NCBI RefSeq assembly: GCF_026151205.1
Contig: NC_087072.1
Coordinates: 9,049,669 to 9,113,668 of the forward strand
Length of the DNA stretch: 64,000 nucleotides
Origin: Bolinopsis microptera
Taxonomy: Eukaryota; Ctenophora; Tentaculata; Lobata; Bolinopsidae
Reading direction: 5' to 3'
The translations under genes and the position numbers were made by a program. The notes below the pieces were generated by a model, which was given only the letters and a program-made list of their open reading frames with translations, was not told where the DNA came from and did no database searches. Shown here in pieces: positions 9,401-62,475 of the stretch. Positions within the stretch are counted from its first letter, which is position 1. Each line of letters opens with the position of its first letter.

Positions 9401-12400
9401 TTATAATTGGGGTGCAATTTAGCTGTTTGTAAAGCGCAAATAAAGCGCTTATAAGCGCTTTTAAAATTGAGTCAGGAAAACGCTATATTACATCTTATAA
9501 CCGCTTATAATCGATTATAAGCGTTTTTTAAGAAATCGCTTATTACGGCTAATTCATCGCTATTACCGCTTTTCCTATCATCCATGGCCAGGTGAGCAGG
9601 AATTAAAAAGCGCTTATAAGCGCTTTTTCGATGCTGCCCCTAGCCTGGTCGGAACGGGGTAGTGCCCGGAATTTAAAAGCGCTTATAAGCGATTTCTCAA
9701 TTCCCCTTAACCTGGTTGGAACTTTCATGTGCTTTTCTGAGCAACCTGGGGTGCACCGGCAGAGTCAGGATTTAAAAACGCTTATAGGCGCTTATGATCG
9801 CTTTTCTACCACTTTTCCTATCACCCATGGCATGGGTTGGCAAGAATTATAAAGCGCTTATAAGCGTTTTTCAATGCTGCCCCTTAGCTGGTCGGAACGG
9901 GGGAGTGCCCGGAATTTAAAAGCGCTTATAAGCGCTTTTTCAATGCCGCCCCTAACCTGGTCGGAACGGGGTGGTGCCCGGAATTTAAAAGCGCTTATAA
10001 GCGATTTCTCAATTCCCCTTAACCTGGTCGGAACTGGAGAGTGCCCACTTGCATGTGCTTTTCTGAGCAACCTGGGGTGCACCGGCAGAGTCAGGATTTA
10101 AAAGCGCTTATGATCGCTTTTCTACCGCTTTTCCTATCACCCATGGCCTGGTTGACAAGAATTAGAAAGCGCTTATAAGCGCTTTTAAATCCTGACTCTG
10201 CCGGTGCACCCCACTCCCCAGGTTGCACAGAAAAGCACTTATAAGCGGGCACTCTGATTTCTAGTTCCGACCAGGTTAAGGGGAATTGAGAAATCGCTTA
10301 TAAGCGCTTATTAATTCCAGGCACTCCCCCGTTCCGACCAGGTTAGGGGCAGCATTGAAAAAACGCTTATAAGCGCTTTATAATTCTTGCCAACCAGGCC
10401 ATGGGTGATGGGAAAAGCGGTAGAAAAGCGATCATAAGCGCTTTTTAATCCTGACTCTGCCGGTGCACCCCAGGTTGCTCAGAAAAGCACATGAAAGTTC
10501 CAATATAGGGGGGGGGTGACATGTCTCCAATGTCTCCCGCACCTTATCTTTTCGAAAAAGACAAAGACATTGGAGACATTGGAGACACAGCTTTTGGAGA
10601 CATTGGAGACATTGGGGACATTAGGGACATTAGAGACACAGCTTTTGGAGACATTGGAGACATTGGAGACATTGGGGACATTGGAGACACAGCTTTTGGA
10701 GACATTGGAGACATTGGGGACATTGGGGACATTAGGGACATTAGAGACACAGCTTTTGGAGACATTGGAGACATTGGGGACATTGGGGACATTGGAGACA
10801 TTGGGGACATTAGGGACATAAAATGGATATTAGGAGCATTGGAGACATTGGAGACACAGCTTTTGGAGACTCCTCCTCCTCCTCCTCCTCCTCCTCCTCA
10901 GTCCTCCTCAGTCGTTCTCCTCCTCCTCCTGAGTCCTCCTCCTGGGACCTGGGTCCTCCTCCTGACCTCCTGGGTCCTCCTTCTCCTGGGTCCTCCTCCT
11001 CCTCTTCATCCTCCTCCTCTTCCTCCTCAATCATCAGTCCTCCTTAATCCTCCTCCTCATCCTTCTCGTCTGTCCTCCTCCTCCTCAGTCCTCCCCAAGT
11101 CCCCCTCCTCCTCAGTCCTCCCCCAGTCCCCCTCCTCCTATTCAATCCTCCTCCTCCTCCTCCTCAGTTCTCCTCAGTCCTACTCCTTCTCAGTCCTCCT
11201 CCTGAGTCCTCCTCCTGAGTCCTCCTCCTGAATCCTCCTCCTCTTCCTGAGTCCTCCTCCTCCTAGGTCCTCCTCCTTCTCCTCCTCCTCCTCCTCAGTC
11301 CTTCTCCTCCTCCTCCTCCTCCTCCTCCCTCTCAGTCATCCTCCTCAGTCATCCTCCTCAGCCATCCTCCTCAGCCATCCTCCTCAGCCATCCTCCTCAG
11401 CCATCCTCCTCAGCCATCCTCCTCAGCAATCTTCCTCAGCCATCATCCTCAGTACTCCTCAGTCCTCCTCCTCAGTCCTCATCCTCCTCCTCAGTCCTCC
11501 TCCTCATCCTTCTCCTTAGTCCTCCTCCTCCTCAGGCCTCCCCAGTCCCCTCCTCCTCCTATTCACTCCTCCTCCTCCTCCTCAGTTTTCCTGAGTCCTC
11601 CTCCTGAGTCCTCCTCCTCCTCCTGAGTCCTCCTCCTGGGTCCTCCTCCTCCTAGGTCCTCCTCCTTCTCCTCCTCAGTCCTTCTCCTCCTCCTCCTCAG
11701 TCCTCCTCCTCCTCCCTGTCAGTCATCCTCCTCAGCCATCCTCCTCAGTCCTCCTCAGTCCTCCTCCTCCTCCTCAGTCCTCATCCTCAGTCCTCCTCTT
11801 CAGTCCTCCTCCTCCTGGGTCCTCTTCATCCTCCTCCTCTTCCTCCTCAGTCCTCCTCCTCATCCTTCTCATCAGTCCTCCTCCTCCTCAGTCCTCCCCA
11901 GTCCCCCTCCTCCTCCTCCTCATATTCAGTCTTCCTCCTCCTCCTATTCAGTCCTCCTCCTTCTCATTCCTCCTAAGTCCTCCTCCCTGAGTCCTCCTCC
12001 TCTTCCTCCTGAGTCCTCCTCCTGGTTCATCCTCCACCTAGTTCCTCCACCTTCTCCTTCTCCTCCTCAGTCCTTCTCATCCTGCTCCTCCTCCTCAGTC
12101 ATCCTCTTCAGTACTCCTCAGTCCTCCTCCTTCTCAGTCTTCCTCAGTCCTCTTCCTGAGTTCTCCTCCTCCTCCTGAGTCCTCCTTCTGGGTCCTCCTC
12201 CTGATCCTCCTAGGTCCTCCTCCTTCTCCTCAGTCCTACTCCTCCTCCTTAGTCCTCTTCCTCCTCCTCCTCCCTCTCAGTCATCCTCCTCAGCCATTCT
12301 CCTCAGCTATCCTCCTCAGTCTTCCTCAGTCCTCATCCTCCTCCTCAGTCCTCCTCCTCCTCCTCAGTCCTCCTCCTCCTGAGTCTTCCTCCTCTTCATC

Positions 12401-15400
12401 CTCCTCAGTCCTCAGTCCTCCTCCTCATCCTTCTCGTCAGTCTTCTTCATCCTCAGTCCTCCCCAGTCCCCCTCCTCCTCCTCCTCCTATTCAGTCCTCC
12501 TCCTCCTCATTTCTCCTCAGTCCTCATCCTTTTCAGTCCTCATGAGTCCTCCTCCTCCTCTTCCTCCTGAGTCCTCCTCCTGGGTCCTCATCCTCCTAGG
12601 TCCTCCTCCTTCTCCTTCTCCTCAGTCCTTCTTCTCCTCCTCCTCCCTCTCAGTCATCCTCCTCAGTCATCCTATTCAGCCATCCTCCTCAGTACTCCTC
12701 AGTCCTCCTCCTTCTCTGTCCTCCTCAGTCCTCTTCCTGAGTCCTCCTCCTAGGTCTTCCTCCTCTTCATCCTCCTCAGTCCTCAGTCCTCCTCCTCAGT
12801 CCTCCTCCTTCTCAGTCCTCCTCCTGAGTCCTCCTCCTGAGTCCTCCTCCTGAATCCTCCTCCTCTTCCTGAGTCCTCCTCCTAGGTCCTCCTCCTTCTC
12901 CTCCTCCTCCTCCTCAGTCCTTCTCCTCCTCCCTCTCAGTCATCCTCCTCAGTCATCCTCCTCAGCCATCCTCCTCAGCCATCCTCCTCAGCCATCCTCC
13001 TCAGCCATCCTCCTCAGCAATCCTCCTCAGCCATCATCCTCAGTACTCCTCAGTCCTCCTCCTCAGTCCTCATCCTCCTCCTCAGTCCTCCTCCTCATCC
13101 TTCTCCTTAGTCCTCCTCCTCCTCAGTCCTCCCCAGTCCCCCTCCTCCTCCTATTCACTCCTCCTCCTCCTCCTCAGTTTTCCTGAGTCCTCCTCCTGGG
13201 TCCTCCTCCTCCTAGGTCCTCCTCCTTCTCCTCCTCAGTCCTTCTCCTCCTCCTCCTCAGTCCTCCTCCTCCTCCCTGTCAGTCATCCTCCTCAGCCATC
13301 CTCCTCAGTCCTCCTCAGTCCTCCTCCTCCTCCTCAGTCCTCATCCTCAGTCCTCCTCTTCAGTCCTCCTCCTCCTGGGTCCTCTTCATCCTCCTCCTCT
13401 TCCTCCTCAGTCCTCCTCCTCATCCTTCTCATCAGTCCTCCTCCTCCTCAGTCCTCCCCAGTCCCCCTCCTCCTCCTCCTCCTCATATTCAGTCTTCCTC
13501 CTCCTCCTATTCAGTCCTCCTCCTTCTCATTCCTCCTAAGTCCTCCTCCCTGAGTCCTCCTCCTCTTCCTCCTGAGTCCTCCTCCTAGTTCCTCCACCTT
13601 CTCCTTCTCCTCCTCAGTGATTCTCATCCTGCTCCTCCTCCTCAGTCATCCTCTTCAGTACTCCTCAGTCCTCCTCCTTCTCAGTCTTCCTCAGTCTTCT
13701 TCCTGAGTTCTCCTCCTCCTCCTGAGTCCTCCTTCTGGGTCCTCCTCCTGATCCTCCTAGGTCCTCCTCCTTCTCCTCCTCAGTCCTACTCCTCCTCCTC
13801 AGTCCTCTTCCTCCTCCTCCTCCCTCTCAGTCATCCTCCTCAGCCATTCTCCTCAGCTATCCTCCTCAGTCCTCCTCAGTCCTCATCCTCCTCCTCAGTC
13901 CTCCTCCTCCTGAGTCTTCCTCCTCTTCATCCTCCTCAGTCCTCAGTCCTCCTCCTCATCCTTCTCGTCAGTCTTCTTCATCCTCAGTCCTCCCCAGTCC
14001 CCCTCCTCCTCCTCCTCCTATTCAGTCCTCCTCCTCCTCATTTCTCCTCAGTCCTCATCCTTTTCAGTCCTCATGAGTCCTCCTCCTCCTCTTCCTCCTG
14101 AGTCCTCCTCCTGGGTCCTCATCCTCCTAGGTCCTCCTCCTTCTCCTTCTCCTCAGTCCTTCTTCTCCTCCTCCTCCCTCTCAGTCATCCTCCTCAGTCA
14201 TCCTATTCAGCCATCCTCCTCAGTACTCCTCAGTCCTCCTCCTTCTCTGTCCTCCTCAGTCCTCTTCCTGAGTCCTCCTCCTAGGTCTTCCTCCTCTTCA
14301 TCCTCCTCAGTCCTCAGTCTTCCTCCTCAGTCCTCCTCCTCATCCTTCTCATCAGTCCTCCTCCTCCTCAGTCCTCCCCAGTCCCCCTCCTCCTCCTCAT
14401 ATTCAGTCTTCCTCCTCCTCCTATTCAGTCCTCCTCCTTCTCATTCCTCCTAAGTCCTCCTCCCTGAGTCCTCCTCCTCTTCCTCCTGAGTCCTCCTCCT
14501 GGGTCCTCATCCTCCTAGGTCTTCCTCCTTCTCCTTCTCCTCAGTCCTTCTTCTCCTCCTCCTCCCTATCAGTCATCCTCCTCAGCCATCCTCCTCAGTA
14601 CTCCTCAGTTTTCCTCCTTCTCTGTCCTCCTCAGTCCTCTTCCTGAGTCCTCCTCCTCCTCCTGAGTCCTCCTCCTGGGTCCTCCTCCTCTTGGGTCCTC
14701 CTCCTCCTAGGTCCTCCTCCTCAGTCATCCTCCTCAGCCATCCTCCACAGCCATCCTCCACGGCCATCCTCCTCAGCCATCCTCCTCAGCCATCCTCCTC
14801 AGTACTCCTCAGTCCTCCTCCTTCTCGGTCCTCTTCCTGAGTCCTCATCCAGCATCCTCCTCCTTCTCCTCCTAAGTCCTCCTCCTGGGTCATCCTCCTC
14901 CTAGATCCTCCTCCTTCTCCAATCATACATCTACGTCTCCAGTGTCTCCAATGTCTCCAATGTCTCCAAAAGCTTTGTCTCCAATGTCTCCAATGTCCCC
15001 AATGTCTCCAATGTCTCCAATGTCTCCAAAAGCTGTGTCTTCAATGTCTCCAATGTCTCCAATGTCTCCAGGACATGTCTCTGCACCCTATTTTTTCAAA
15101 AAAGACAAAAGACATTGGAGACATTGGAGACATTGGAGACATGTCACCCCCCTCCCCCCCCCCCCCCCCCCCCCTTATAAGCGGGCACTCTGATTTCCAG
15201 TTCCGACCAGGTTAGGGGCAGCATTTAAAAAGCGCTTATGAGCGCTTTTTTATTCCGGGCACTCCCCCGTTCCGACCAGGTAAGGGGCAGCATTGTAAAA
15301 CGCTTATAAGCGCTTTATAATTCTTGCCAACCCATGCCATGGGTGATAGGAAAAGTGGTAGAAAAGCGATCATAAGCGCCTATAAGCGCTTTTAAATCCT

Positions 15401-18400
15401 GACTCTGCCGGTGCACCCCAGGTTGCTCAGAAAAGCACATGAAAGTTCCAACCAGGTTAAGGGGAATTGAGAAATCGCTTATAAGCGCTTTTAAATTCCG
15501 GGCACTACCCCGTTCCGACCAGGCTAGGGGCAGCATCGAAAAAGCGCTTATAAGCGCTTTTTAATTCCTGCTCACCTGGCCATGGATGATAGGAAAAGCG
15601 GTAAAAGCGGTGAAATAGCGATGAATTAGCCGTAATAAGCGATTTCTTAAAAAACGCTTATAATCGATTATAAGCGGTTATAAGATGTAATATAGCTTTT
15701 TCCTGACTCAATTTTAAAAGCGCTTATAAGCGCTTTATTTGCGCTTTACAAACAGCTAAATTGCACCCCAATTATAAGCGCTTATAATCGCTTATAAATG
15801 GTTCAAAAAAGCGCCTACGAATCGCTTATCCGGCCAACCGCTTATCCACCCGTTTTTGGCGCCAATCCTACTGGAAAACCGCTTTCAAATCGCTCAGCGA
15901 CGCTAGTAAGCGCTTAAAAGCGCTTATAAGCGCTTTTAAATTCAAAAAAGCGCTTTTTTGAATTATGACATCAATTATAGTCGATTATAAGCGATTTTTT
16001 TTGAACCGTTTATATAATCGTAAAAAAAGCGATTGTAAACGGTTTTTTTTTTAAAAGCGCCGAAAAAGCGCTCAATAAGCGATTATCGGCGCCGATCATA
16101 AAATATCGTTTATGGAAACTTGCCTAATTTTGTTTGATTAAGTGTTTCATATTTTATAATTACGATTTAAGGTACAGTTAAATTGTGTATAATTGCTTAT
16201 TATATATTATAGTCATAACATTTTCTGAAATAATTCATTAAATCCCCGGCTGTGCCCTCGGCAGATGTATGGTTATTGGCCGGGGCCGGGGTAAATATTT
16301 TGGCCGGGGCCTGCCCCCGGTTAATTGCTAAATTTTGGCCGGGGCCGGGAAGAGCCGGGGTTGTGATTTTTGCCGGGGCCGGGGACCAGGTCAAACACTG
16401 ATAACGTTGCATTACACAATTGTTGAGTTTAACATAATATTATAACAAATAACTTATAAGGTTAATGTCTTACATTGAGTTTCCTTACAATTCAACTTGA
16501 ATTGTCGGGAAACTTGAATTGAATTCAAGATGTATAATTCTAGAATTATCCTCATAGAAGTTTTTACAATTAGCTGGGCAAGATGACTGGGACTAGTTGA
16601 GCTGGCGAAGCCGCGAAGGGCATAATTCAATATTGTAACTTTTGAACATTAGATTCCAATACATTATGTGTACTAGCAGGAACCCGTATAATATAACCCT
16701 AAACGGTGTCAAGACTCAATATACTAAAATAATTATTACCTATTTAATTGGCGTTTTTGACACCACTTGGGGGTCCAAATTTTAGGCTCTAAAATCATTA
16801 TTCCTTGGCCAATTTTTTATTTTTTCATGCTGATTTGAAGGCCATTAAAGCATTTGACCCAGCCAAAAAAGTTCCAGTTGTATATCTTTTACGGTTTTTG
16901 CGGAAAGTCGCGTTAAAGTTGATGCCGTGGTGTCAGTAAAATGGCACAGATATATATATATATCGTCTCGCTTTATATATAGTAAGATAAGCTAATATAA
17001 TAGCTAAGATGCCTGCAATATTATCTAACTACAAGTACAACTCTAATACATTTCATCGTGAATTGAGCGACTCTATTTCGATCTGTTGAGGGATTACGAT
17101 CCAAGATTAACCTTCTTTTGTTTTTATCAATTATCGATAGTATTAAAACTTGCTGCATTATCAACTTACCATCTGACAATCTGTTTTCCTGATTTAAAAG
17201 TAATACTTTCTCTCCGGTGTTTTTCATTTTACATTTGAAAAACTTTTGACCCTAACCATAGTTATGGGCATGTCGATATTATCTCATTGTACACAGCAGT
17301 ACAAAGTACACAAATCTGATCGAACAAATATCGGCCGATGGTGCGATAAAGTGCGGTATTAAGTAAATAGTGCAATTCTGCAAACCGCACCCACCGCACT
17401 TATATGTTGCCTCTGAACCCAATCATATGTAATTAAATTGTGCTCATTTCACTAGCAAAGCTTACAGATATAAGACCCGCGTTACAAACAATAAGAGTCC
17501 TAATGTAAGACACCAAATAGCCACCGATTATACCTGTGCATCAGAGCTGAAGAGGGTAGAAGAGGAGGTAGGATGAGGAACTTCAGGGCCACTACCAGAG
17601 TTAATGAGGAGGACTCTGTCACCATCAGAGGGTCTACAGCAGCACGTGCAAAACACTGAAGACACACTGTACACACAAATGTAGAGAAGACTCGCTACTT
17701 GCGCGACGTACAGGTAGAACTGTACTTCGTTCAATGTGTCTTGTCTGAGGGAGGTAACTTATTTGTTATCAGTCAGATAAAATTAATATATTCACGTCAA
17801 AACAATTGTACTTCTTGACTATAATAAGCTCTATGAATGGATGAAGCTTTAAAGAAGTACCAAAAAAGCAGGTTGACTTGAAGATAATTGAAAAAGGTTG
17901 GTCCAAATAGCAAACCTTTGAAAGAACCAGTGCGGACTATTCCAAGCAGAGAAAGAGCCCGCATACCTAGCAAGGTTACCAAACCAGAACAGGGACGGTA
18001 CTATGGGCAACATCTTCTTACTGGTCAGATAGAGGGATGTGGTAATTATCCAGGCTATCAGGTCTATACTGATCTGAGAGGGAGAGGGGTAATCATTTCA
18101 TTGTTAATTCAATGATTTGTTATTAAGTTGTGTTTTAAGAATACTATAATATCATGAAGATGATTTGAGTATGGACTATGAGGAGGTAGTCAAGTGACTT
18201 CTATTATCTAGTAAAACATTGTCCATATTATTAGTGTGTGATTAAAAAGTTCAAAGCATTGGAAATTATGAAATTATGAACACAAGATTATGATGTTTGG
18301 GATGTTTGTTATGCTTTATATAGTTAGTGAACCAGCTAACTACGTTTCCTTCGCTTTGTAATTATTGTTTAAATTATTTAGTTATATTTTATTCGATATC

Positions 18401-21400
18401 TTTGTCGCAAAGAAGCGGGGTAGTAAGTACTGTGTTTCGTTTCGTTTCGTTTCGTAATTGTTATTATTAATTGAGGGAAAGGCTTGCATTAAGCTTGTGT
18501 TACTGGAGCGTGTCACAGTTGTCAGAAGTGTGAAAGGAGCAAGCATGCCGTAACCACGGTAACGAGATTTTTACATCTAGCCATTAGCAGCCGGTAGCAC
18601 GATATTTTGCTGACTTAGCTAATTGTACTCCTAAGACTTCAGAATCATACGTCACCGGTCACCTGAAGACCGCGCAAAGCATAATTTTGTCTCACCCCTA
18701 TACCATGACAGATTGGCCATGGTAACGTGTAACTCTAGGTAGTATGTACTAGATATAATATAAATAGAAGGTAACAGGACCGACTATATATAGAGCCTGG
18801 AATCTAATCAGTTGTGATTTAATTATTGGTAGATATTGGTCTGATGACCACGTACCCCGATCATTTCCCCTTCTGTTCATGTTGTATTCTGCAGGCAAGA
18901 AGATTGACATGGTCAGACGTTTAGTGCAGTGGTCGTGTCATTTTTTAGGATGTTCCTTATGTAGATCGAGAAACTAACGCGAACGCCTTAAAATCAATGA
19001 ACAAATACATTTTTATGGTATTATTATATATAAGAGTAAAATATGTACGCTAATGACGATTACAGTAACTCGGCGACTGAAAGGATGCCCATAATTTTCA
19101 TCAGCACAAGATTGTATTGAAATATTATAAATCTATTATATCTAAGTGTCGTAAATCAATTTTTAATTGTCGTACGACAAAATTTATATCAGTCTGATTT
19201 TAGTTGGAATGTGACTACCGAACTTAGAAGTAGCAGCACAAATAATTCACTATTTGTCCTTCGATATTAGTTCCTATCTTAGAACAAGTATGTTCATCAG
19301 TTCATGGTTTCTTCCTTTGTGTGTTCTATTGATAAAATCAAACATTTGCTACGTCCGCCGCAGATTTTTATTCTTCCGCAGAACTTGTTTTTCTTGTGCT
19401 AATACTTTCTCGTCTCGCTTAATAAACACTAAAGCGTTTATTATTCTGAGCAGTGAGCTGTAGGCTCGAACACTTCCTCTTCTCGAAATTCGTCATGCTT
19501 ATCTAGTATCTACCCTCTCCTCGCTTGGATGTTTTCTACAATTACAAGGGCGGGGATAACTTGTTTTATTGATGTTTTCGAGCAGAAACAGTTTTTCTTC
19601 ACACCTGTACCGGATAACGGTTTGATAAGGACTTCATACGTTTTCTGCCTGATGTACGTGGGGTAAACACTTATGTGACTTTAATGTTTTTCTGAACCTC
19701 ATGACTAGTTTTGTTTATAAGGCTCTACAGTCTACAGTTTTCTTAATCAAGATATCACTGTACTATGGGGTTCTAATATTAAGACGCAATGAAACTACCT
19801 AACTATAAGGTTTTCTATTATAGTCTACTATCTAGGTTTCTCTTGTTACTCTTATTACTGTGCAAGCTGCACCTGAAAGGTGGTACTACTGATTTTGCTG
19901 GTGATATTTTGCAGTGATTACTGTGCAAGCTGCACCTGAAAGGTGGTATTATTGATTTTGCTGGTGATGTTTTGCAGTGATTACTGTGCAAGCTGCACCT
20001 GAAAGGTGGTATTATTGATTTTGCCGGTGATGTTTTGCAGTGATTACTGTGCAAGCTGCACCTGAAAGGTGGTATTATTGATTTTGCTGGTGATGTTGTG
20101 CAAGCTGCACCTGAAAGGTGGTATTATTGATTTTGCTGGTGATATTTTGCAGTGATTACTGTGCAAGCTGCACCTGAAAGGTGGTATTATTGATTTTGCT
20201 GGTGATGTTTTGCAGTGCTTTATATTAATATGATATGCACATTTTTTCTTCGCCGACACGTCAAAGCATAACTTGTAGTTGTACTGATCATTAAAATATT
20301 CGCAAGCGCCGAATCCATCTTACAGAGAAGCCATTGTAGTCCATGTTACAGTTGACAGTTCAGAGTTTCAGTTGTTGTAACTTCATATTGCATCTGTATC
20401 TTGATTGTAGATTTGCATTGGGTTTTGATGGCCACTCATATTTTTCATAATCGCACCAGATTTGTGTCCAGTTTTTTCTCCTCCATGCTAAGTGTAAGTT
20501 TTGAAACTTGTGACCGGACAGGGAGTGCAACTATAAACTAATCGCACCGTTTTGAGAGCACCTGACAACATAGTCGGATCAACTATAAACTAATCGCATT
20601 GATTTTCTAAAACGAACTGTAATATCGTGTTCCATAATTTCAATACATAAGGGGTCGTTCACATAATATCACGTAATCAATATTTAAGCAATTAATACCC
20701 CCCTCTGTAATCAACCGTAATTAAGACCCCACCCCCGCCCCCCCCCCCCCCCCCCCCTCCTGACAGCAATATTACGTAATCATGGCCTCCCCCCCCCCCC
20801 CCCCTTGACTTTTTTCCCTAGAAAACACTTATCTCTACGTTTCATGCTACCCTGATCATGCTATCATGATGAGCCGAAACCATTGTTATGATATCCAGCC
20901 AAGCACCTTCTAAACTACTGACTATTATAGCCGGATATTCGATCAATTTCTAAATTGTATCACTGCAGCTGAACTACAACGATACTTCCCAAAGAATATC
21001 TTCTCTCATAGTTCGTTATCCCCATGACAAGTCAGGATTATGAGTACAGTAACCAAACTGTTTATAGCATTAAAAGTGATGCAGTACGGTACACTTTGGC
21101 AGGATACTACCTGGTCGTCATCAGCTCATCTTTCATAGGAGACACAATCATTCTCATAGCATCTATAAAATACAAGGCTTTCAAACTGCACAATGTGATG
21201 ATTGTCATCATCCAGCACATTGCGGTCTGTGATTTGTTGGTTTCAGTTGCAGAGGTACTCCCGAAAGTTGTTTCTATTTCCGCTGGTGAATGGGTGTTAG
21301 GCAGATTCCTGTATCACCTCTTATATTATCTGAGACTTTATGTCATGATATCAAGCTTACTTCTTATCTGTACCATGACCACCAGCAAGGTGCTGCTCCT

Positions 21401-48013: not shown

Positions 48014-49447
48014 TTGGATCAACACATACTTTGGACAGCGTTCGGAATGGCTACTCCTATAAAGTTAATTTTAACTGAACTAACCTCTCCTCAGCTTGAT
48101 AGTGTTTTATCCAAATTCCAGCTGACTGCTCCAGAGGGCTATGACGAGGATGGAAAGCGCAAACTTCTTCGCAGCAGCAAAGTCTTCACAAGAGGAATTG
48201 GTAACCATGATAATGATAACACTTTGGCAGTATTTGATAAAAAAGGTACATTTGTTGATTTCGAATCAGTAGATGGAACGGTAAAAGGAATTTTTGCTAA
48301 ATCAGAATCGGGTAAGGTGATGTACCCATGTTCAGTTTGCTGTAAAGAGGTTACAAATAACTCGGATACATCAGGTCTTGGCATTGAATGCAGTGGATGT
48401 GGGTGGTATTTTCACACCAACTGCACAGAGAAGCCCATTAGTCTCAGCCTGTTTAAAGCACTTAGTGATTCTCCAACATACATTAAGGTGCTGTGCCCCC
48501 CATGTAACTCAGTTTATGGTAGTGCTCTATCCAAGTTGAAGCGTGTGGAGCGTAAAGTGGATGCTATTACCGTAAAAGTTACCACTGTTGTGAAACAGTT
48601 AAAACAGGCAGCAAATAAAGGACCATTATACAGTGCAGCTGTTTCAAACGGTATCTCCAAACATAGTCCTATCCCACAAAAGGTCATGGAGGGTCTGAAA
48701 TCGATTTCAAAAGCTAAACAGGACTCTGACGATGTTGAGCGACTCAAACGTACCAGAGTTGTTATCCGACCAGAAGATACTACCATAAGGACTAGTCGTG
48801 ATATCCGTAAGGCTTTTAATCAGCATTACCAAGGCATGGTGATCAAACATTGTAGGTTAACGGCATCAGGTTCCATCACATTTGAATTTGAGGATGAAAA
48901 CACAGCTAAAACTGTGCAGTCTAACTGGAAAACCAGTCATTTTGGTGGTAACAAAGGTATGAAAATACCAGGTGACTATAACACTGTTGCCATGGTTAAG
49001 CATGTGTATGATGATCACAACGAGGATGATATGAAGAAGGATATTATGCAGAATTACCCTGGTATAATCACTAAGTGTGAATTTCAACAGAAGAGGTCTG
49101 ATAAATCATTCAATGGAATGATCAAACTAGAATTTTCATCACGAGAAGCAATGACAAAAGTTATAACAGACAAGATAAAGTTTTGCCATCAACGCTACAT
49201 AGTTGAAGAGTACAAAAGAAAGTCTAGGGTAATCAAGTGCAACAAGTGCCAAGGTTGGGGACATATTCACCGATATTGTACCAAACCAGCTAAGTGCGGT
49301 AAATGTGCAGAAAACCATGAAAGCAATAGCTGTCCAATAACTAGTGGCTTCAAATGTGCACATTGCAAGGAAGATCATCAAGCAGGTTCTTTTGACTGTG
49401 CAGTGTACAAAGAGAAATTGGCTAAGTTCTCCCATGATGCATTATGA
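48014..49447 (+). CDS. LINE ORF1: PHD finger and zinc-knuckle protein
   Basis: 477 aa, intact. A PHD-type C4HC3 finger spans about residues 106-164 (Cys106, 109, 126, 129, His134, Cys137, 161, 164). A basic, coiled region follows, then a central part that could be an RRM-like fold. Clustered CCHC-type knuckles lie at about 409-462 (CNKCQGWGHIHRYC, CGKCAENHESNSC, CAHCKEDHQ). Gag-like ORF1 proteins of this kind bind LINE RNA to form the ribonucleoprotein; a PHD finger could tether it to chromatin. The stop TGA overlaps the ORF2 start in ATGA, pointing to coupled termination-reinitiation. Confidence 0.88.
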   Translation: MDQHILWTAFGMATPIKLILTELTSPQLDSVLSKFQLTAPEGYDEDGKRKLLRSSKVFTRGIGNHDNDNTLAVFDKKGTFVDFESVDGTVKGIFAKSESGKVMYPCSVCCKEVTNNSDTSGLGIECSGCGWYFHTNCTEKPISLSLFKALSDSPTYIKVLCPPCNSVYGSALSKLKRVERKVDAITVKVTTVVKQLKQAANKGPLYSAAVSNGISKHSPIPQKVMEGLKSISKAKQDSDDVERLKRTRVVIRPEDTTIRTSRDIRKAFNQHYQGMVIKHCRLTASGSITFEFEDENTAKTVQSNWKTSHFGGNKGMKIPGDYNTVAMVKHVYDDHNEDDMKKDIMQNYPGIITKCEFQQKRSDKSFNGMIKLEFSSREAMTKVITDKIKFCHQRYIVEEYKRKSRVIKCNKCQGWGHIHRYCTKPAKCGKCAENHESNSCPITSGFKCAHCKEDHQAGSFDCAVYKEKLAKFSHDAL

Positions 49448-52400: not shown

Positions 52401-52902
52401 AAAGACTTACAAGTACACCAAGGGAATGATACAGCAGTTCACAGAGCTACTTTGGCAAGAAAGTCTACAAAACCTACTACTTATGGAAGGATGGTCTGAT
52501 ATTCCAAGAGTCTCCTGCAACCCCCTTCCCATCCCCTTTGGAGGGAGCCGCGAAGTGGAAGTATTGGTTATGAGTCTCATGTACAAGAACAATCTACTGA
52601 ACTCGTTTCTCTTCAGAGTTGACAGAGCAGCGGCCTCTCCGCTGTGCATCTGTGGCTCGGATGAGCAAACAGCACTGCACCTACTATCAAGTTGTGAGCT
52701 TGTGGACACAAATCTACAATGTCAAGCGGAACGAATCATCACCCTGTGCAACAGTGGTAGGCCCATAGTCGATCTAGCAACTGAGCAGGGCTCCATCATA
52801 CTAAACTGCTCAAGGGACGATATATTTATAAGTGTGTGTGTTAAAATTGTAGAAAGCAAGGGGTTAAATCTTAAGCGGAAGATAAATCCTTCGAAAAGAT
52901 AA
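49444..52902 (+). CDS. LINE ORF2: endonuclease/reverse transcriptase
   Basis: 1152 aa, uninterrupted. The N-terminal apurinic-type endonuclease has QETGSS, GDFNARH and SHIDFFI blocks (about residues 10-240). The reverse transcriptase domain shows YRPISISS, DFEKAFDSVW, GLPQGSVLSPILF and the catalytic FADD at 724-727. A C-terminal Cys/His motif (CICG then HLLSSC) begins at about residue 1068. This order is that of the Jockey/I/R1/CR1-type LINEs; I cannot place the clade more precisely. Both ORFs being open suggests a recent, possibly active copy. It performs target-primed reverse transcription. Confidence 0.92.
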   Translation: MIKNHNSIGNAENNTVLGKFCTINICGLSQRSNMMLSKYASDNNILLFGVQETGSSSQWKSLTNMKTFEDTNKNSNKGCAIIVKQEVMFTQLPVISHISSNIDSVWGILSWNGKRYIIGNLYLKLDYLSGVKEMLVMLDKANELSRFYKCAGVIAMGDFNARHYIWNDTVVNKYGKYIEEHLDWSKFCVHASSSSTFLARNGSSHIDFFITSTQLDKYLDHPIADHFANLYSGAPLRGHVPISINIQVQPVAIRSENVKKYNLKSMDWFNWTRDIELDLAIEKIDSLATDGTIKELLEAINTAIDVSTKENCQMKCVSKHSKPYWTPKLSLLSERLRLDLKSYLSRNTDSAFEALQASKKEFEEARKQACQQFILRKTNDLNTSQAKKFWKEFNKLFKPPSDQMVEALISEDGTILTGNADIEKEMFETFFQAKHIENNIDKFDNAFFQDINKLYDDIKYRNFQPSATEAMADRFTNSSTLYCPVTPWEVSATLKGIQSTAASFDNHEVHQSMLKKLGPIAIHALSKLFTLCLRNGLWLWNDSKIVFLKKDGKSSYSQAGAYRPISISSYVGKLFERILARRLDIYLMKVGLTDVNQEGFSKGKNTIRYLNRLTVGIKGDIIKKLTVLCLFIDFEKAFDSVWKKGLIVKLWRAGVHGCYLKTIDSFLFGRTVCLLINGFLGPVRDCLDYGLPQGSVLSPILFKFFIMDIEAVCSVYQQISVLKFADDGTVKVVGRDLEECLFYLNLAMDSIEYWTSCWRMVINCNKNKTEIICFNCYDHAGVPTSFNLGGKTIQLTDQTRVLGVILDSKLTFKQHSKHVHNNLVYRWVCMSRYANRNWGMNQAVIVRVTKTILFSTLFYGSTIWMNNSNMSDINKLWYRVSKAAVGAVFNVHGAILEVILGVPPLQTLGRIISIKHYLKVLHDSNDIHYDFVKTQLNEKNPTVLCHLREVQKFLQWKAEHFNTEVQACDLGEISHRNLDHILLLSPKTYKYTKGMIQQFTELLWQESLQNLLLMEGWSDIPRVSCNPLPIPFGGSREVEVLVMSLMYKNNLLNSFLFRVDRAAASPLCICGSDEQTALHLLSSCELVDTNLQCQAERIITLCNSGRPIVDLATEQGSIILNCSRDDIFISVCVKIVESKGLNLKRKINPSKR

Positions 52903-53485: not shown

Positions 53486-56198
53486 CTACATCAACTTTCG
53501 GGGGCCCTTTAAGAACAATCTCGAAGATCGACTGTAGATTGATTTAGCACGCTCGACTTCATGAACATTTCCAGTTTTATGTCGAAAGCTTTATTTGATG
53601 AACGGCGCGACCCAATTAAATAAATCATTATCAATCAAGACCAAGGTACAAATCGTTAATCAAATTTTTAAAAAAACAAAGCATATACTTGTTTGTTATT
53701 GACGCTAAATTTTGCAAATAGCCGCGCACTTTATCTCCCATGAAAGAACATTAAATTAATTTAATGCATATTAGCTAGTAGTATAGTTTTATAATTTGTT
53801 TTATTTTGCAAATTGACTTACTGGGCGGCACTCAGCCTGTCATTCGGCCGAATTTCTATTATGAACATAAATATAATAGCATGGGGTCCCCAGGTAACAA
53901 GTTGACGTGCCCATCGACCAAAATTAAACGGGGAATCGTTTAAAATTACTTGTAGCGCGATGCGTTACTGTGCCACGCCGCGCACTCAATTATGCTTTTC
54001 GCAACCAGATCGGTGAAATGCGCTACTGGGCCTCACCGAGCTGCGATGAATGGACATCGCGATCGTCAATTGAAAATTACTTTCGACATTCGAGACATTT
54101 TTATTTAACAAAAGCTATTTATACTATTGTGCTTTTTACAAAGAATTAAGACAATATTGTTTTTGAGTTTGTTATTATCTTTCAAAATCATCCCAAGCGA
54201 TTCATACAAGTATAACTACGCCTTTTGCAAATGGTTAACAAAGTACACCGTTTAATTGCAACAACTTACATGCCCAACGCGAGCTGATTACTCAGCACTC
54301 AGAATGCGCGAGCACGTCAACATAAAATTTTTCGCGCCCTACAAACTTCGGTAGACCTTATAATTTGCAACTGAACGCTTGCGTATGTCGTAGTTCAAGC
54401 TGCGCGCGCGGTATGAGTATTTTCATTGCATCATACAACATAAATTATCGGATTATAAGTAGAAGCTATTTGTACAGGGATTTTCTCATCGATACTTTAA
54501 ATGACTAATCTTTAAAAAACAAGGTCGATTCTTATACAATTACAATATATTTTGCATATGCGCGTTAAATCAATTCGTTATCATGTAATAATGTGTGTCA
54601 TACTTAAAGCTAGGAATATTTGTGTATGGATTTTCATTCTAAAACATGGAAAGATTTCATCAATTAATGTAACTTGGTACTATATGGTTTATTTGATCTT
54701 ATATGTTATCGATCGCGATTTATATAGTTTTACGTTATCGTGTATCATGTATTGATAGTTATACATTATTATTATACAACGAGTCCAACCCAGCGCGCGT
54801 TTTGGTAGTTTATAAACCTACAAATAATTTTATCCCCTGATAAACTCCAAGATATTATACATCAACGGATTATAATCTCATTGTATAGTCACATAACATG
54901 ATACCATGACCTAAATTTTGACAAATGGCTAAGCTCTTGACAAAAATTATAACCTGTAAAAGTCATAAAAATGATAACTTCACATAATCGGGTGGAAATC
55001 ATGCTTTTTAAAATTTTTCACGAAAGTTTTTAACAGCATATTATTTATCACATTTTTTTACACAAGATTTGAATCATGTTGTAATTTTTTTTTCCATTAA
55101 TTGACGATGTCAATTCATGGCAGCTCGGCGCGGCACAGTAGCGCATCTCGCCGATCTAGCCAGGAATTGATGAATTCCAGCAAAATACGCGCCAAAAGAC
55201 GCGCAGTTGCGGAGTGATGTCAACCATTACTTTACACACTGATATCACTATAATTTGGCGTGACACACGTGTAATAGTAGAAATTACTAAGCAAGAAGTA
55301 TACTTTCACAGGATTGACTTCGTGCAGTGATGTCAATGATTTCTTTGAGCACACCGATGTCATTATAATTTGGCGTAACCTGTGATATATATATAATAGT
55401 CTGAAAAGGAAAAACACATGGAGATTGTAGAAATTACTTAATTACTAGACAAGGAGTATACATTTACAGGATCGACTTCGTGCAAGCTTTCAAGACGGTA
55501 ATCACATTCGACCGAAAGAAACACGTAATATAATAGATTCGTTCAGACCCATGATATACTTTTTCCTCAGCAAGGGTGTACACTTAAGACAACAGGACCA
55601 TTAACCTTGCGCAAGTTTGTACAATACATTATAATAATAACAAATTATTAATCTCATCTCGGTAACTTTTTAAACGTTCATGAAGGCAGTTTTTGACAGA
55701 ATGGCAACTTTACTTGTTATCAGTGTTCATTGTCATGTTAAAGGTTTCCTTTATACAAGTGGTAGCTTAGGCGAACTTAATTATACTGTGTCATGTGTCT
55801 TAACAGAGTATTTACTATTATTGTGCGGCAAGTATCAGTATTCATGCGGCAATGCAAGGAATAAAAGCAAAAGAATCACAATTTTAATTGTTCACTCTCC
55901 GATCTAGCGCACCCTGACAGAACAGACTGTCCTTGCATGGTTTTACCATTACAACATGATGAATTAGGTAAAACCCCGGTAAAACTATAGCCGAGCACTC
56001 CCCAGCAAAAACGTGACCAATGCAATTCAATGTAATTCCACCATATCTATCAATCGTGTTAATGATTACAAAAGCCCGAGGTCCACCGGTAAATATAATC
56101 AAGTGGAAAAAGGTTGTAGACATATCACAAAATCTATATTAACTTAGATATTCTAATAATTGGGAATAATTTGATTACATACTTTAAAGAGAACAGTA
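53486..56198. other. Long non-coding stretch with a local tandem duplication
   Basis: No gene recognised. At about 55210-55490 a block of 120-130 bp recurs two to three times with divergence (shared TATAATTTGGCGT, AGTATAC, ACAGGAT.GACTTCGTGCA). The rest is AT-rich with scattered GC-rich words. Confidence 0.5.
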
Positions 56199-57958
56199 AC
56201 CCTGGTCATTAGAAACAGTGAAACACCCCTAAAAGTTCGGTTTTTGACAAAAAATTTAAAACTTCTGTAATTTCATTTCTGTTTTAGTTACGCATTTGAT
56301 TTTTGGTATGCGTATAGAAAATCGATACGGCTTTAAAATGAGATGTCCGGCGACCTCTTAGCTTACTCACTAGACTCAGTAGGAGTGATTTAACTGCGAG
56401 GGACAATTGAGGCTAACGAATTAGCCTCATCACTTTCAAAAAATAACTTTCTCGTGTAACGTCCATGATATCCAAGTTGCAAGTATAATCCATTGTGATT
56501 ATACTTGATCGAGATCTATTCGAGGTGAAAATGAGGCTAACCACCTTTTGAGAGGGTGAAATGAGGCTAACAAGTATACTTTTGTGTATATTTTCGAGTA
56601 GGTTCGGTATTGTGACTATCTTAAATATGTCAACAACAAAGATTGATTTATCCTCTTCAAGCTCAACATTTCAGAAATCGCAGAGTCTACTTGTAGGATG
56701 CCGAAATGAGGCTAATAAAGAATTCGACCGCATTTTAACTTTAATGTACGGAAACAGGTTAACAGCTCACAAGTTACTTGATATCAAGGTTGCACATGAA
56801 ATTCCTTGGGATTATACTTAATCGGTATCTAAGCTTCAAATATTCGAGGTGAAAATGAGGCTAACCACCTTTTGAGAGGGTGAAATGAGGCTAACAAGTA
56901 TATTTTTGTGTATATTTTTGAGTAGGTTCGGTATTGTGACTATCTAATATGTCAACAATAAAGATTGATTCATCCTCTTCAAGCTCAACATTTCAGAAAT
57001 TAAATATTATAATAAGAGTGTCATGAGTTAGCCTCAATCTCACCTCTCAAAACTCATGTCAGGTTAGTATATGATTATCAACTAATCATGAATACAGGTT
57101 AGACAGAAACAATTTGAAGGGCTAGTCCGAAGAAGCAGTAGAACAAGAAATGAACAAAACCTTGATAGTTAGCCTTATTTTACCCTCCATCAAAAGACAG
57201 AAAGGGTAGGTGGAGTCTACCATCGACCTAAAGTATCCATATAATGTATACCAGGGCAAAGGATAGTTTAAAAGGACGTTATTGCTCAAACATAATTCAA
57301 AAATTAGAAAAGATTTGTCAGCCTCACTTTACCCTCCATTAGAACTAGAAGGAAAAAAGGGGTCGGCTGGGCCAGCCTTCGACCTAGAGCATCAATGTAT
57401 CTCATGTATTTTAGGTTAGAGGATACTTTGATAGACGTTATTGTTCAAAAATAATTCAAAAATTAGAAATGATCTGTTAGCCTCATTTTACCCTCGATTA
57501 AAAGGAAAAAAGGGGTCGGCTGGGCCAGCCTTCGACCTAGAGCATCCATCTCATGAATTTTAGTTCAGAGGATACTCTGATAGACGTTATAATTCAAATA
57601 TAATTCATAACTTAGTAATGACTTGTTAGCCTCATTTTCCTCTCAATTAGCGAAAAAATTTCCCTCTTCACTTCGGATTCTGAAAGAGTTCGATCTGACG
57701 AATCGATTGAACACGTTTAAACTTTTATTACATACTTGGAAGCTGTCATTAGAATACAAAATGTAAAATGACTCGTTAGCCTCAATTTGCCCTCGACTAA
57801 ATGCTTCACAAATTTTATTAATCGAAGCTCAATTAGTTGAAATATGGACTTGTGAAATATCATATGCCTATCTTAAAAGTTGTTGCTGTGACAATCTTCT
57901 AAAGTTAAATTGGAAAAAACGTGGTCCATCTCGTGCGAACTTTCCTAATGACCAGGGT
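56199..57958. mobile_element. Candidate foldback element with internal GAGGCTAA repeats
   Basis: The ends ACCCTGGTCATTAG and CTAATGACCAGGGT form an inverted repeat of about 14 bp. The left half contains duplicated AAAATGAGGCTAACCACC blocks (56528 and 56851). The right half contains four or so TTAGCCTCATTTTACC blocks in the opposite orientation (57180-57790), so GAGGCTAA words are inverted between halves. No clear target duplication and no transposase. Probably a non-autonomous DNA element. Confidence 0.5.
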
Positions 57959-58138
57959 CCAGAACATGATCAATGATGGAGACATTCGTAAACTATTGAC
58001 AAATAGATTTACGAGAGTGCTATGGCCAGTACCAAATACACAAATCACTAATCATGATTCCTAGCTTTGAATTTACCCGGGAACCCCGGGCTTTGTGTTC
58101 TCAAACAGTCGTTATATTAATATGAGACTTAAGTTAAT

Positions 58139-58140
<2 letters not shown>

Positions 58141-58176
<36 letters not shown>

Positions 58177-58864
58177 AACCATATTAAAGTATATTAAAAT
58201 GTAGGATTTTTCCCGATTTTGACCCGGGGATATACTTTAATATACTTTAATATACCTACAATATACTTTAATATCCCTATCTCCTTGGAGGCCTACTTCA
58301 AAAATTGTTGCCCAAAATAAGCTTGAAATGCAATTCTTAATCTATTCCAAAAAGTTCTTGAAAAAATATTGAAAACTGATGGAGTTATTTCAATTTTAAT
58401 GAAGTCATTTTGGCTAGTATTCCGAACCGAGATATTATGTGCAATTTTCCCAATTTTGTTCATGGAGGTCTTTTTACTTAGTATCCACTATATTCAACAA
58501 ACACTGAGTTATATCTTTCACATAGAGTTAGTCTCATTAAAAAATATTGAAATTTTATCGAATTTGGTCAAAAGCGAATTTGGGCAAAAGTGTATGCCCA
58601 AATAGGGCATACTTTTTAAAGCTCATAGCTCAGCCAATTTTTGACCAATCTGGATGGAAATTCATGTACTAGTCCTAAAACAGGCTTATCTTGCGAATCT
58701 GAGTGAAAAATATAGTTCATCATGTAAATCTTAACGAAGAATATAAATCTTCTAATTGTAAGGTATATTTAAGTATATTAAAATGTAGGATTTTTTTCCG
58801 ATTTTGACCCGGGATATACTTTAATATACTTTAATATGGTTGCCCCCCCCCCCCCCCCCCCCCC
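58141..58864. mobile_element. G/C-homopolymer-bounded foldback element 5
   Basis: Begins with 34 G (58141-58174) then CCAACCATATTAAAG, and ends CTTTAATATGGTTG then 22 C (58843-58864). The subterminal 10-bp unit is TATACTTTAA and its inverse. Each arm also holds GTAGGATTTTT..CCGATTTTGACCCGG. AATTT flanks both sides (58136-58140 and 58865-58869). The interior ORF of 78 codons has no family resemblance. Confidence 0.78.
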
Positions 58865-58869
58865 AATTT

Positions 58870-59490
58870 TAATAATATTCTTGATTGATACGTGTATGAA
58901 AACCTAAAAAACAGGGTCCCCAGGTAATAAGACTAGATTATATATTTCAAAGATTTCGATACGAGAGGTTATCATACCTCATGCTACTGCTAGCTATGCA
59001 TTTTTCGTATAATACAGAATGACATTAACTGCGGAGCACCGTACTAAGAGTAAGTTTCTACAACAAGGTCTATTATATACTGAACATGCGAAGATGATTA
59101 ATCACTCAACACTCGACTAACGCATAATATACTTTAACAGTTAACACGTACTTCAAGTAGTCCTTATTGACTATTTAAAATCCAAACCCAAACTAGAGCG
59201 CAGAGCATATGTTGAAAACCCTAATCCGTACGAGAAATTATACCAACATCCCTATTTGGTCATACCACCTGGTCATTATAAAGAGGTTCATAAAACCAAA
59301 ACATATCTAAATAATTTTTGATCAATTAGACTTAATTGACGTTCATAACGCTCAATAACAATCAAACAAATTTTCAAGTTTCAACTTGAATTGCTCCAAG
59401 AGTTTTTTGGCCTATTCTTGCTGCAAGGAGACTTCTTAGCTCTAGAGGTAGGTCTTTATCAAACAAGGATAGTGGGATTTGCTCTTCAGT
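58870..59490. other. Spacer without recognised features
   Basis: AT-rich, no gene or repeat boundary identified. The string GGGTCCCCAGGTAA near 58914 also occurs near 53884. Confidence 0.4.
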
Positions 59491-59494
59491 TAGG

Positions 59495-60546
59495 TATCAT
59501 GTATGCCTGTTGAGGACTGTCGTGGTGATGGCTGATACTCTGTCTACACTCTTGTACTTCTGAAGACTATGTAACAAACGGATGTCGTCGGAGGCTGCAG
59601 ATTCAAGGAAAGAAGCGCTGAACCAAGCTCTCAAGTAAACGAAGACAACAAAGTGAACACGTTTCTCTTCTTCGTCCAGTGAAATGGTAGCTAATGAAGA
59701 AGAGCCGTCTTCATAATGTATATGGCATGGTGGATGGTGGTCAGCTCCAGGTCATTGTATCTGGAGGAATCCTTTCTTCATCTCTATGCTTTCTCACTCG
59801 ATTAGTTTAGCAAGCTCTAGGAATTCATTGTAATCTCCTGGGCTGGTTGTTGAGTTGGCGGATGTGATTAATGAAGGATAGAAGGTCTCCTAATCCTACG
59901 TCGTTCCTGTAGCAAGTAAGGATATCGGGAAGGACGATGTTCTGCAGATCGAGATCTTCCCAGGAGGTCTTCTTGATCTTGAAAAGGGTTATTTCGAGTG
60001 ATGTTGTGTCACCGAACAGTTGCTTGGAGGCAGATCCTCTTACAAGCTCCGCCTCCAGGACGTGATGTCTCCAGGCGGGTAGGCCATCCTGAGTATCTGT
60101 CGATTGTCGATTGAGGAGCTGCTGAAGAATAGTACATGCCCTTTTGTGAACTCCGCCAGTATTGGATGATGTCGTATCAAATCCAACGGCTATCATTTTA
60201 TCTGCTAGGCTCCGGTCGTCGAGAGTCTTCTTCACTTTGTCTGCTTCGTCATAGTCCTTGTAGAGTCACTCGTCTTACAGATTGCGAGTATCTTGTTCTC
60301 CTCATCTTGTACTAGGACCACAGCCAGTCTGTTTACTTTCCTAAATCCTCCGAGGTCTGCCAGGAGTTTTCCATCGAAATTTTTCTGTCTGACATTGGAC
60401 GTTAGGTCTCTTTTGATCTTTGCTGCTTGCTCTGATCGGATTGAGGCTCTGTGACGACGTGCAGTGGACTTTGAGAGAGAGATAACAGCCTCATATCCCC
60501 GTATCTTCACCGAGCATTGCGATGCAGTGTCTCCTCGAACCGTCAC
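59495..60546 (-). pseudogene. Transposon-derived protein fragment (FDTTSSNTG family)
   Basis: Two frames, 60232-60546 and 59825-60235, encode successive parts of one protein. The first gives DGKLLADLGGFRKVNRLAVV; the second gives VGFDTTSSNTGG and then WRHHVLEAEL. I recognise this arrangement (DGK..L, FDTT.SNTG, CRHH.LE) from repetitive uncharacterised invertebrate proteins that look like transposase or RNase-H-fold derivatives. The assignment to a superfamily is uncertain. In-frame stops and frame changes occur at 60235 and throughout 59500-59825, so the copy is dead. The Cys usual before RHH is Trp here. Confidence 0.5.
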
Positions 60547-60549
60547 TGA

Positions 60550-61288
60550 GGGAAAGAAATGTTCACAAATCTGATTTATTTTTCAATAAATAATGAACAT
60601 GCAATATACATGAAGGTTTTAACAAACAGGGTTCAAGCCAGGCAGCATGGTTGAATAGTGAATAGTAATACCTGATAGTGAGAGAAACAACTGCACCAAG
60701 ACTGAAGACGAATGAACTCCGTAAATTTCTGGCCGAAAATAAATCGTCTTTGCAAATTGTAGATCCCCTCCTAAAAATATAATCTATATTTAAGAGATGT
60801 AAAAAATTACCCCATACGTTTGGTCTTATGGCATAACCATTCTTTATTAGTTTATATAATATGTTTAGCGTAAAAACATCGATTAGATCAGGTACTAAGT
60901 TCTGTACGTGGCATCGACTAAGTGTAATTTTGGAATTTAGTCAAAAACCCACCCACCGACCCTTCTGTGGTATTAAATGTTGAGAAATCACGGTACTAAC
61001 TGTGTCTTAGTATATAAACAGCTTTAAACAGCTCATTAAACAGTGGGAAAATTATACCCACTAGGGGTTTTGTTTTCAATGTAGTCGAATTAGATGAAAT
61101 AAAAAGTTACAAAAACAGGAATAAACTCAAAATCCCAAAAATACTCAAAATTGAAATTAGAGGTGAAATGGGTTTTTTGGGCTTAGTACCATATGCCTGT
61201 TTTTCTGGGAAATGTGCCATGTAATAACTGTGTTTTGGAAGAAAATATGACCCACCCCAACGTCACCTACGGTACTAAGTGTAAGATT
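60550..61288. other. Spacer with short local duplications
   Basis: GGTACTAAGT-type words recur (60890, 61270), and a long C-run at 61289-61311 ends the region. No gene recognised. Confidence 0.35.
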
Positions 61289-61311
61289 CCCCCCCCCCCC
61301 CCCCCCCCCCG
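61289..61311. repeat. C-homopolymer at the 5' edge of an RT fragment
   Basis: About 23 C. Unlike the six bounded elements, no matching G-run and no inverted sequence could be paired with it. It may be a remnant end. Confidence 0.5.
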
Positions 61312-61614: not shown

Positions 61615-62475
61615 GGGGGGGATGCAACGTCAATTAATGTCAATTAATGTCAATTAATGTCAATTAATGTCAATTAATGTCAATTAATGTCAATTAATGT
61701 CAATGTCAGTTTTGCAAAATTTTGGAATACTGACATTAATTGACACGATATTTTTCGACCAGAGATTATGTAGTTCTACCATATTTTTAGCACTTTAGAA
61801 CGTTTATATCATCAATTTATTCACTACTATCACATATGGAAATGTGAAATGTGAAAAAAATTCAGATCATTAAACAATAAAACTAAAATAATACGGTTTT
61901 CCGAAATTTAATTTTCTTAAATGGGCGTGGCCATCCAAGGGCGTGGTTCTCAACATCATCAGAACTTAAAACCCACATTAAACGAAATGCCTTCATGACA
62001 TTTATATTTGAATAACGAATCTTAAACAGCTAGCATTACTACTTCATACTAAAAAAGCCGATTCTAGATATTTTACCTGTAAAAGAAACCAATAAAATAT
62101 GGGCGTGGCCGGTGGGGACCGAAGATGGAAGAGTTTGAAGCTGAAATTTTTTTTTGTGGTCTTTGAACCTAAGGATCAACAGATAAGAACATACTCATAA
62201 TTATTCAAGGACATTTTGTTTTTTGAACCGGTCTAACTTACATAGACGTGAATATCTTGAATATTTATCGAATAATGATAATCTCAAATTTCAAGACAAA
62301 TTAATGTCAATTAATGTCAATTAATGTCAATTAATGTCAATTAATGTCAATTAATGTCAATTAATGTCAATTAATGTCAATTAATGTCAATTAATGTCAA
62401 TTAATGTCAATTAATGTCAATGTCAGTTTGGGGTTTTTATGGAATACTGACATTAATTGACGTTGCATCCCCCCC
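61615..62475. mobile_element. G/C-homopolymer-bounded foldback element 6 with perfect 8-bp target duplication
   Basis: Begins with 7 G then ATGCAACGTCAATTAATG, and ends CATTAATTGACGTTGCAT then 7 C. The flanks are AACATGTA on both sides (61607-61614 and 62476-62483), a perfect 8-bp duplication. Arrays of the 10-bp unit GTCAATTAAT occur at 61629-61705 and 62301-62420. Each is followed by a hairpin of the form GTCAGTTT..GGAATACTGAC, matching the GGCAGTCTG..ATACTGCC hairpin of element 4. Interior 61760-62280 is AT-rich and non-coding. Confidence 0.85.

Follow-up and report, generated by a model that had tools for sequence, protein, structure and literature searches.

The ends of a transposon are normally fixed sequences that are read base by base, and a locus of the ctenophore Bolinopsis microptera raises the question of what kind of element can end on a homopolymer. 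This locus, here called the window, is the whole stretch of 64,000 nucleotides that was analysed (contig NC_087072.1, contig 1 of the genome, positions 9,049,669-9,113,668), taken from an assembly of 264.65 Mb in 232 contigs. A sequence-only reading had described six foldback insertions in it, each with a G-run at the left end and a C-run at the right. These six members are non-autonomous terminal-inverted-repeat DNA transposons of the cut-and-paste type and were recently active. This follows from target-site duplications (TSDs) at most copies, from tips conserved within families and from the empty sites of two of the members. The TSDs fall into two classes, one of 6 bp (NNTANN in families F1 and F2) and one of 8 bp.

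Families F1 to F10 were defined by the tip word. The six members, designated w1 to w6, are the following.

10508-15174, w1, family F1: G9 tip (10508-10516), word TGACATGTCTCC, arms of 9-bp units, CTC-array interior; right tip C6-T-C21 (15147-15174); no clean TSD.
25551-27565, w2, family F2: G12, word TGTCATGTCCG, units ATGTCCGCCT, GA-rich interior, C17; TSD ATTACC.
37235-37580, w3, family F3: G13, word AACCAACG, units GGGCATTAAT, C31.
41541-44951, w4, family F2: G10, GA-rich interior, C20; TSD AATATA.
58141-58864, w5, family F5: G34, word CCAACCATATT, units TATATTAAAG, C22; TSD AATTT(T); nested in an F10 element.
61615-62475, w6, family F6: G7, word ATGCAACG, units GTCAATTAAT, C7; TSD AACATGTA; within a multi-copy repeat.

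The plan proposed for these insertions (G-run, word, units of 9-10 bp, interior, inverse units and word, C-run) was borne out by reading the six stretches, and the unit length was verified. The positions were also correct, except that the fourth member ends at 44951 and not at 44952. The window contains 18 runs of G or C of at least 7 nucleotides, 12 of which form the outer ends of w1 to w6, all with G on the left and C on the right. A strict pair detector (run of at least 7, 8-bp inverse word, at most one mismatch) recovered four of the six member pairs; w1 was missed due to the T inside its C-run and w5 due to an extra C in its left word. With the opposite polarity, C left and G right, the same detector returned no pairs in the window. 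Solitary C-runs outside the recognised pairs are located at 20738-20757, 20789-20804, 24144-24154 and 62916-62939, and the first two of these sit in a repeat that also adjoins loci of Mutator-like elements (MULEs). Member w1 is itself nested in an outer foldback of 7.07 kb (9055-16124) with ends GGCAAGTTTCCATAAACG, an 8-bp TSD TAATTTTG and arrays of AAGCGCTTATAAGCGC.

Target-site duplications were assessed in 61 copies of seven families by comparison of both ends. The sample consisted of the six window members, the 20 first-listed F2 tips of contig 1, plus/minus pairs with exact tips (10 F1, 10 F5, 10 F6 and three F3) and one F7 and one F8 copy met by chance; the choice of exact tips biases it toward young copies. 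One letter was allowed to be absorbed into the run. Exact TSDs of 6 bp were found in 33 of 45 copies (F1 8/11, F2 18/22, F5 6/11, F8 1/1) and exact TSDs of 8 bp in 15 of 16 (F3 3/4, F6 11/11, F7 1/1). Pairing of shuffled flanks (2000 shuffles) gave means of 1.5 for the 6-bp class and 0.95 for the 8-bp class, with maxima of 7 and 5. The duplications start directly outside the G-run and the C-run. Their length is strict: F6 showed 8 bp in 11/11 copies and 6 bp in none, F1 and F2 together showed 6 bp in 26/33 copies and 8 bp in none, and an 8-bp TSD was present in only one copy of F1, F2, F5 and F8. If a letter was absorbed, several of the 6-bp copies would have 7 bp instead. A length of 9 bp is obtained in no more than two copies, L073/L074 and L115/L116, and there only when absorbed letters are counted in as an alternative.

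The copies lacking an exact 6-bp TSD are w1, L097/L098 and L103/L104 in F1, L045, L049, L052 and L058 in F2, and L115/L116, L121/L122, L125/L126, L127/L128 and w5 in F5; w3 is the one miss in the 8-bp class. When an interrupted run is counted as a single run, L097, L103 and L052 fit as well, which brings the 6-bp TSD to 10/11 copies in F1 and 19/22 in F2. L045 and w5 are near-misses with one mismatch. L115/L116 agrees at 8 bp and not at 6, and L127/L128 was scored as a miss with its flank unseen, the fetched stretch being G up to its edge (run of at least 51).

Within the window, the flanking repeats reported earlier were found again: 6 bp for w2 and w4, 8 bp for w6 and 5 bp for w5. Those of w2 and w4 can be read as 7 bp if a C was absorbed in the C-run, and that of w5 as 6 bp if the G-run has taken over its final T. 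The TSD of w3, 8 bp with two mismatches (ACCGTAAA/GTCGTAAA), is the offset 6-bp match described before. The duplications are thus genuine and the six are insertions, not assembly joins, as had been stated. Their description as one group does not hold by mechanism, with four families usually duplicating 6 bp and three 8 bp.

The two classes also differ in their targets. In F1 and F2 the target is NNTANN, with T at position 3 in 26/26 sites and A at position 4 in 24/26 (flank frequencies 0.31 and 0.33). Four of these 26 sites are ambiguous because of an absorbed G or C, and G was chosen, which favours the TA centre; without them the counts are 22/22 and 20/22. In the 8-bp class (n = 15) the preferred letters are G1 (9), T2 (9), A4 (10), C5 (9) and A7 (9), with T2 and A7 together in 7/15 sites, and there is no TA centre. 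As both TSD length and target differ between the classes, different enzymes can be argued for, and at least two transposase lineages seem to serve the G-tipped families.

Two empty sites were located. For w6, the 20-base join of the flanks with a single 8-bp repeat is present exactly at 83 other places in the genome; at up to two mismatches it is present at 222 places (its own left junction included) versus eight for the reversed pattern. The wide recurrence of this join indicates that w6 was inserted in a multi-copy repeat, which presumably derives from the tail of a long interspersed nuclear element (LINE) and of which the open reading frame (ORF) has no Pfam match. For w5, the 972-nt join of the flanks matches two other places from end to end (972/972 nt, printed as 100%). 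Both of these belong to F10 copies, so w5 is nested in an F10 element and very young. Empty sites free of a duplication had been named as the outcome that would speak against insertion; at w6 and w5 the duplication is present.

Tips are conserved within each family and number in the tens to hundreds genome-wide. Exact patterns of these tips were found at 324 places for F2, 123 for F1, 94 for F6 and 10 for F3, and at 554 for F5, some of which are counted twice as that pattern permits an extra base. The reversed patterns of F1, F2, F3, F5 and F6 gave no matches genome-wide. The majority of the 94 F6 tips form plus/minus pairs at a spacing of about 730-1200 bp. Two further G-tipped families were met:

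L081:2189-2592, F7: G-tipped foldback of 404 bp, unit AGTCCCCATT, 8-bp TSD TTCACAAC.
L045:4245 to L007:2171, F9: G28 and C16 tips, 6-bp TSD ATTATC; it encloses an F2 copy.

F9 was encountered once, around this F2 copy, and its tip words form no obvious inverse pair.

Each arm is a hairpin of a few units, a loop and the inverse units. In folding with RNA parameters against 60 mononucleotide shuffles, 11 of the 12 arms scored better than the shuffles (z from −2.1 to −7.9); the left arm of w1 contains a hairpin that is no better than shuffled sequence (z −0.2), and some folds are branched, for example those of the left arms of w3 and w6. The interiors looked at are non-coding. A purine-rich array was found in the 16 F2 elements profiled, the F1 interiors hold the same array read as CT, and these GA/CT arrays reach several kb in both families. 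Between two F1 tips 13.6 kb apart, the CTC array was present at 4/4 sampled points (651 bp each), and an F3 pair of 2.5 kb encloses a CCCTGA/CCCTAA array. An F6 copy of 8.1 kb (L079-L081, C9:2751510-2759750) contains a separate, nested piggyBac element flanked by TTAA (PF13843, E 4.7e-80), which also encodes an ORF of 13-residue repeats STVKVIGDEEQTE.

The length of the runs varies between families, and for long runs the exact values may be affected by sequencing error. The commonest G-run length is 7 in F6 (14/24 tips) and 8 in F2 (11/44, with a tail to 36). F5 has longer runs, from 8 to at least 51 for G and from 9 to 34 for C. Across all copies, the lengths of the G-run and the C-run are weakly correlated (rho 0.40, n 60); inside the single families F1, F2, F5 and F6, no correlation reaches significance. 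Age alone was considered as a reason for the long runs and rejected: F5 has the longest runs, yet w5 is young. Long runs must have been present already in the donor, or their growth must be very fast.

These features suggest how such an end could be built and used. The tip would be templated, with about 7-8 G before the family-specific word, and the G-run would lengthen by replication slippage while long runs remain transposable. The units of 9-10 bp, each about one helical turn and arranged as arm hairpins, most probably serve as arrays of sites to which the transposase binds. Taken as a whole, non-autonomous cut-and-paste elements with terminal inverted repeats and a slipping G tip, perhaps mobilised by hAT-like enzymes, form the explanation to which we incline on balance.

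A candidate for a related enzyme is located in the window, in the F10 element that hosts w5. The statement that no transposase is present is right for the six members and does not extend to the G-run tip at 61289-61310, which is accompanied by a decayed transposase-like gene.

61289-61310, minus strand: F10 tip, C22 on the plus strand and thus G22 AATCTTACACTTAGTACC on the minus strand; usual form G7 ATCATACACTTAGTACC.
59828-60265, minus strand: decayed F10 transposase-like gene, fragment with VGFDTTSSNTGG ... WRHHVLE.
60235-60582, minus strand: upstream fragment of the gene with NFDGKLLADL, in another frame, with a frameshift near 60265.
57961-61310, minus strand: the portion of F10 for which other copies show homology; w5 is nested in it.
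56196-57960: E2, an additional element nested in F10 that lacks G-run tips; its ends are G(TA/G)ACCCTGGTCATTAG, its TSD is AGAACA (6 bp), and its right end recurs at seven listed places (94-96%).

The F10 tip was found at 78 places in the genome at up to three mismatches, and its reversed pattern at none; among the 56 of these places with letters printed, 35 read exactly GGGGGGGATCATACACTTAGTACC. The tips are without close plus/minus pairing, which indicates that the other F10 end bears another word. A second tip of this type is located at C1:9113749-9113772, about 80 bases past the right end of the window. The gene fragment (59828-60265) has 83 matches in the genome, and relatives with open frames of 435-507 amino acids exist; long open frames of F10 relatives lie, for example, near C9:273716 and C1:5440380. 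In all four gene copies at 99-100% identity, that of the window included, the same strand carries an F10 tip 0.9-1.0 kb upstream, and in two of the four a second tip lies farther upstream. Outside the window this coincidence is 3/3, with a chance expectation of about 0.001; the remaining matches have no listed F10 tip within 5 kb. The open-access literature yielded no paper on the FDTTASNTG motif.

The identity of the enzymes was weighed by comparison with known systems. The hAT superfamily is the closest work-alike, since hAT6 yields 6-bp TSDs (PMC12730594), Buster elements prefer nnnTAnnn targets (PMC3499496, PMC3517528), and Hermes favours nTnnnnAn targets and carries short subterminal repeats to which BED fingers bind (PMC10368747). 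The elements studied here resemble these in several respects: TSDs of the hAT lengths (8 bp in 15/16 copies, or 6 bp as in hAT6 in 33/45), the TA centre of the F1 and F2 targets, a weak tendency toward nTnnnnAn among the 8-bp sites, subterminal repeats that are short like those of Hermes, and small non-autonomous copies. Domains of hAT type are common in this genome, with 150 scored out of 365 candidates. The F10 motifs FDGK, GFDTTSSN and RHH recall, in our estimation and at motif level only, the hAT catalytic core and its C-x2-H.

Against this assignment stand several observations. Instead of a CAGGG-like start (CAGRGGTAGGC in the hAT element Mar, PMC3517528), all families listed have G-run tips, and their long hairpin-unit arrays also set them apart from hAT elements. 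None of the G-tipped elements read yielded a hAT gene, none of the 150 scored domains falls inside the four longest tip pairs (F1 C10, F5 C2, F6 C5/C9, compared by eye), and no intact autonomous copy was seen among the pair interiors inspected (F6 8.1 kb, F3 2.5 kb, F1 13.6 kb at four points). Among targets, those of F5 and F8 are TA-centred in just 1/7, and G1 and C5 of the 8-bp class (9/15 each) are not predicted by nTnnnnAn. For F10, the tip word differs from the words of all six members, and neither its TSD nor its other end, which apparently lies left of 56190, beyond E2, could be found. Neither the F10 fragment nor the gene read-through gave a significant Pfam or PDB match, the likeness to hAT stays at the level of motifs, and the AlphaFold model of the fragment alone, made without an alignment, was unusable (mean predicted local distance difference test score 39). 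The combination of a GG tip with an 8-bp TSD in F3, F6 and F7 moreover agrees with the ends of Merlin elements, and the hAT share, which is below one half, is set somewhat lower for this reason. That the enzymes are hAT-like transposases, with the decayed F10 gene as a candidate relative, is therefore put forward tentatively, by analogy.

The lack of a clean match to any superfamily had been noted from the sequence, and we agree: among the loci examined, the tips could not be linked to MULE, Merlin or hAT genes, and the open-access literature offered nothing on point about poly-G tipped transposons. For the 8-bp families, the earlier suggestion of Merlin-like elements is supported by their ends. 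Merlin elements start with GG and make TSDs of 8-9 bp (PMC8101967), and F3, F6 and F7 could be such elements with GG ends expanded into a G-run. The genome has 58 Merlin domain matches, and one Merlin copy begins with GGCA and has palindromic subterminal arrays, as does the outer foldback at 9055-16124. The suggestion fails for the 6-bp families (four of the seven, 6 bp in 33/45 copies), and at the two Merlin loci read of the 58, the copies have the terminal sequence GGCAGTTTACAAG (GGCAGTTTAC), without a G-run; a Merlin origin of the 8-bp families is unlikely. Mutator-type elements had also been proposed, and most foldback elements are assigned to Mutator (PMC4079207) while Rehavkus bears a minisatellite (PMC6446971), in keeping with the tandem-repeat arms seen here. 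No support came from the 88 MULE domain matches, as none of the 30 loci read has a G/C-tip pair within 1.5 kb on either side of the domain, a distance at which the tips of longer elements would escape. The TSD of 8-11 bp (PMC6446971) fits none of the 6-bp families, and the usual lengths here are 6 or 8 bp and not the 9 bp of Rehavkus, so that we consider a Mutator/foldback or Rehavkus-type origin very doubtful. The Drosophila foldback Tetris likewise has long inverted arms of tandem units around a non-coding middle, but its units are about 220 bp long versus 9-10 bp, its TSDs are 8-10 bp (PMC4079207) versus 6 or 8, and G-run tips set the present elements apart from it.

The 6-bp class taken separately could have been produced by Polinton, IS3EU or another integrase-type group, which make 6-bp TSDs throughout (PMC10045372). 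IS3EU elements end in TA..TA (PMC10045372) or TAYGG (PMC12730594), whereas the letters beside the G-run vary here and belong to the TSD. No integrase gene was seen inside the elements read, and the F1 pair 13.6 kb apart has CTC array at each sampled point; this origin is improbable. A piggyBac origin disagrees with the TSDs, which are not TTAA. It is again unlikely, to about the degree of Merlin, that all G-tipped families make up one undescribed superfamily, capable of TSDs of 6 or 8 bp, the enzyme of which is encoded by F10. The common tip, the hairpin-unit arms and the Pfam-less transposase-like gene adjoining a G tip would be explained by it; the strict TSD length within F6 and F1/F2 and the different targets would not. 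The common G tip and the unclassified F10 gene leave some room for a broader version, which we rate slightly higher and still as speculative: homopolymer-G tips would mark one or more undescribed DDE transposon lineages, in which an F10-type enzyme outside Pfam reads the G7-8 tip and the hairpin arrays of 10-bp sites and tolerates 50-base tips, and relatives of this enzyme would have diverged into 6-bp and 8-bp cutters while tip and arms stayed the same. Finally, long homopolymers are error-prone and their exact lengths unsure, yet that the junctions themselves are artefacts of assembly or sequencing is hardly conceivable given the TSDs outside the runs, the hundreds of tips and the empty sites. 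Cut-and-paste transposition of non-autonomous elements, probably by enzymes of more than one lineage, is the reading retained.

Three other features of the window were recorded.

21012-22085: open frame encoding a receptor of the rhodopsin family (7tm_1, E 1.6e-14).
22828-23927: 11-bp unit TTACCTCAGTG in about 100 tandem copies.
47987-52902: two overlapping LINE-like open frames, the second with RVT_1 and endonuclease matches.

In these families, the outermost part of the transposon is a homopolymer of freely changing length, and yet the copies still move. This includes copies with long runs: w5 has G34 and C22, and its host DNA matches two empty copies at a printed identity of 100%. A testable question is raised by this, namely how a transposase locates the cleavage edge of a run of which the length is not specified. 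These families also combine a single plan of tip and arms with TSDs of two lengths, and so offer a natural test case for which of the two, TSD length or end structure, better reflects how transposases are related. With their GA/CT interiors, F1 and F2 are foldback elements that disperse satellite-like DNA.

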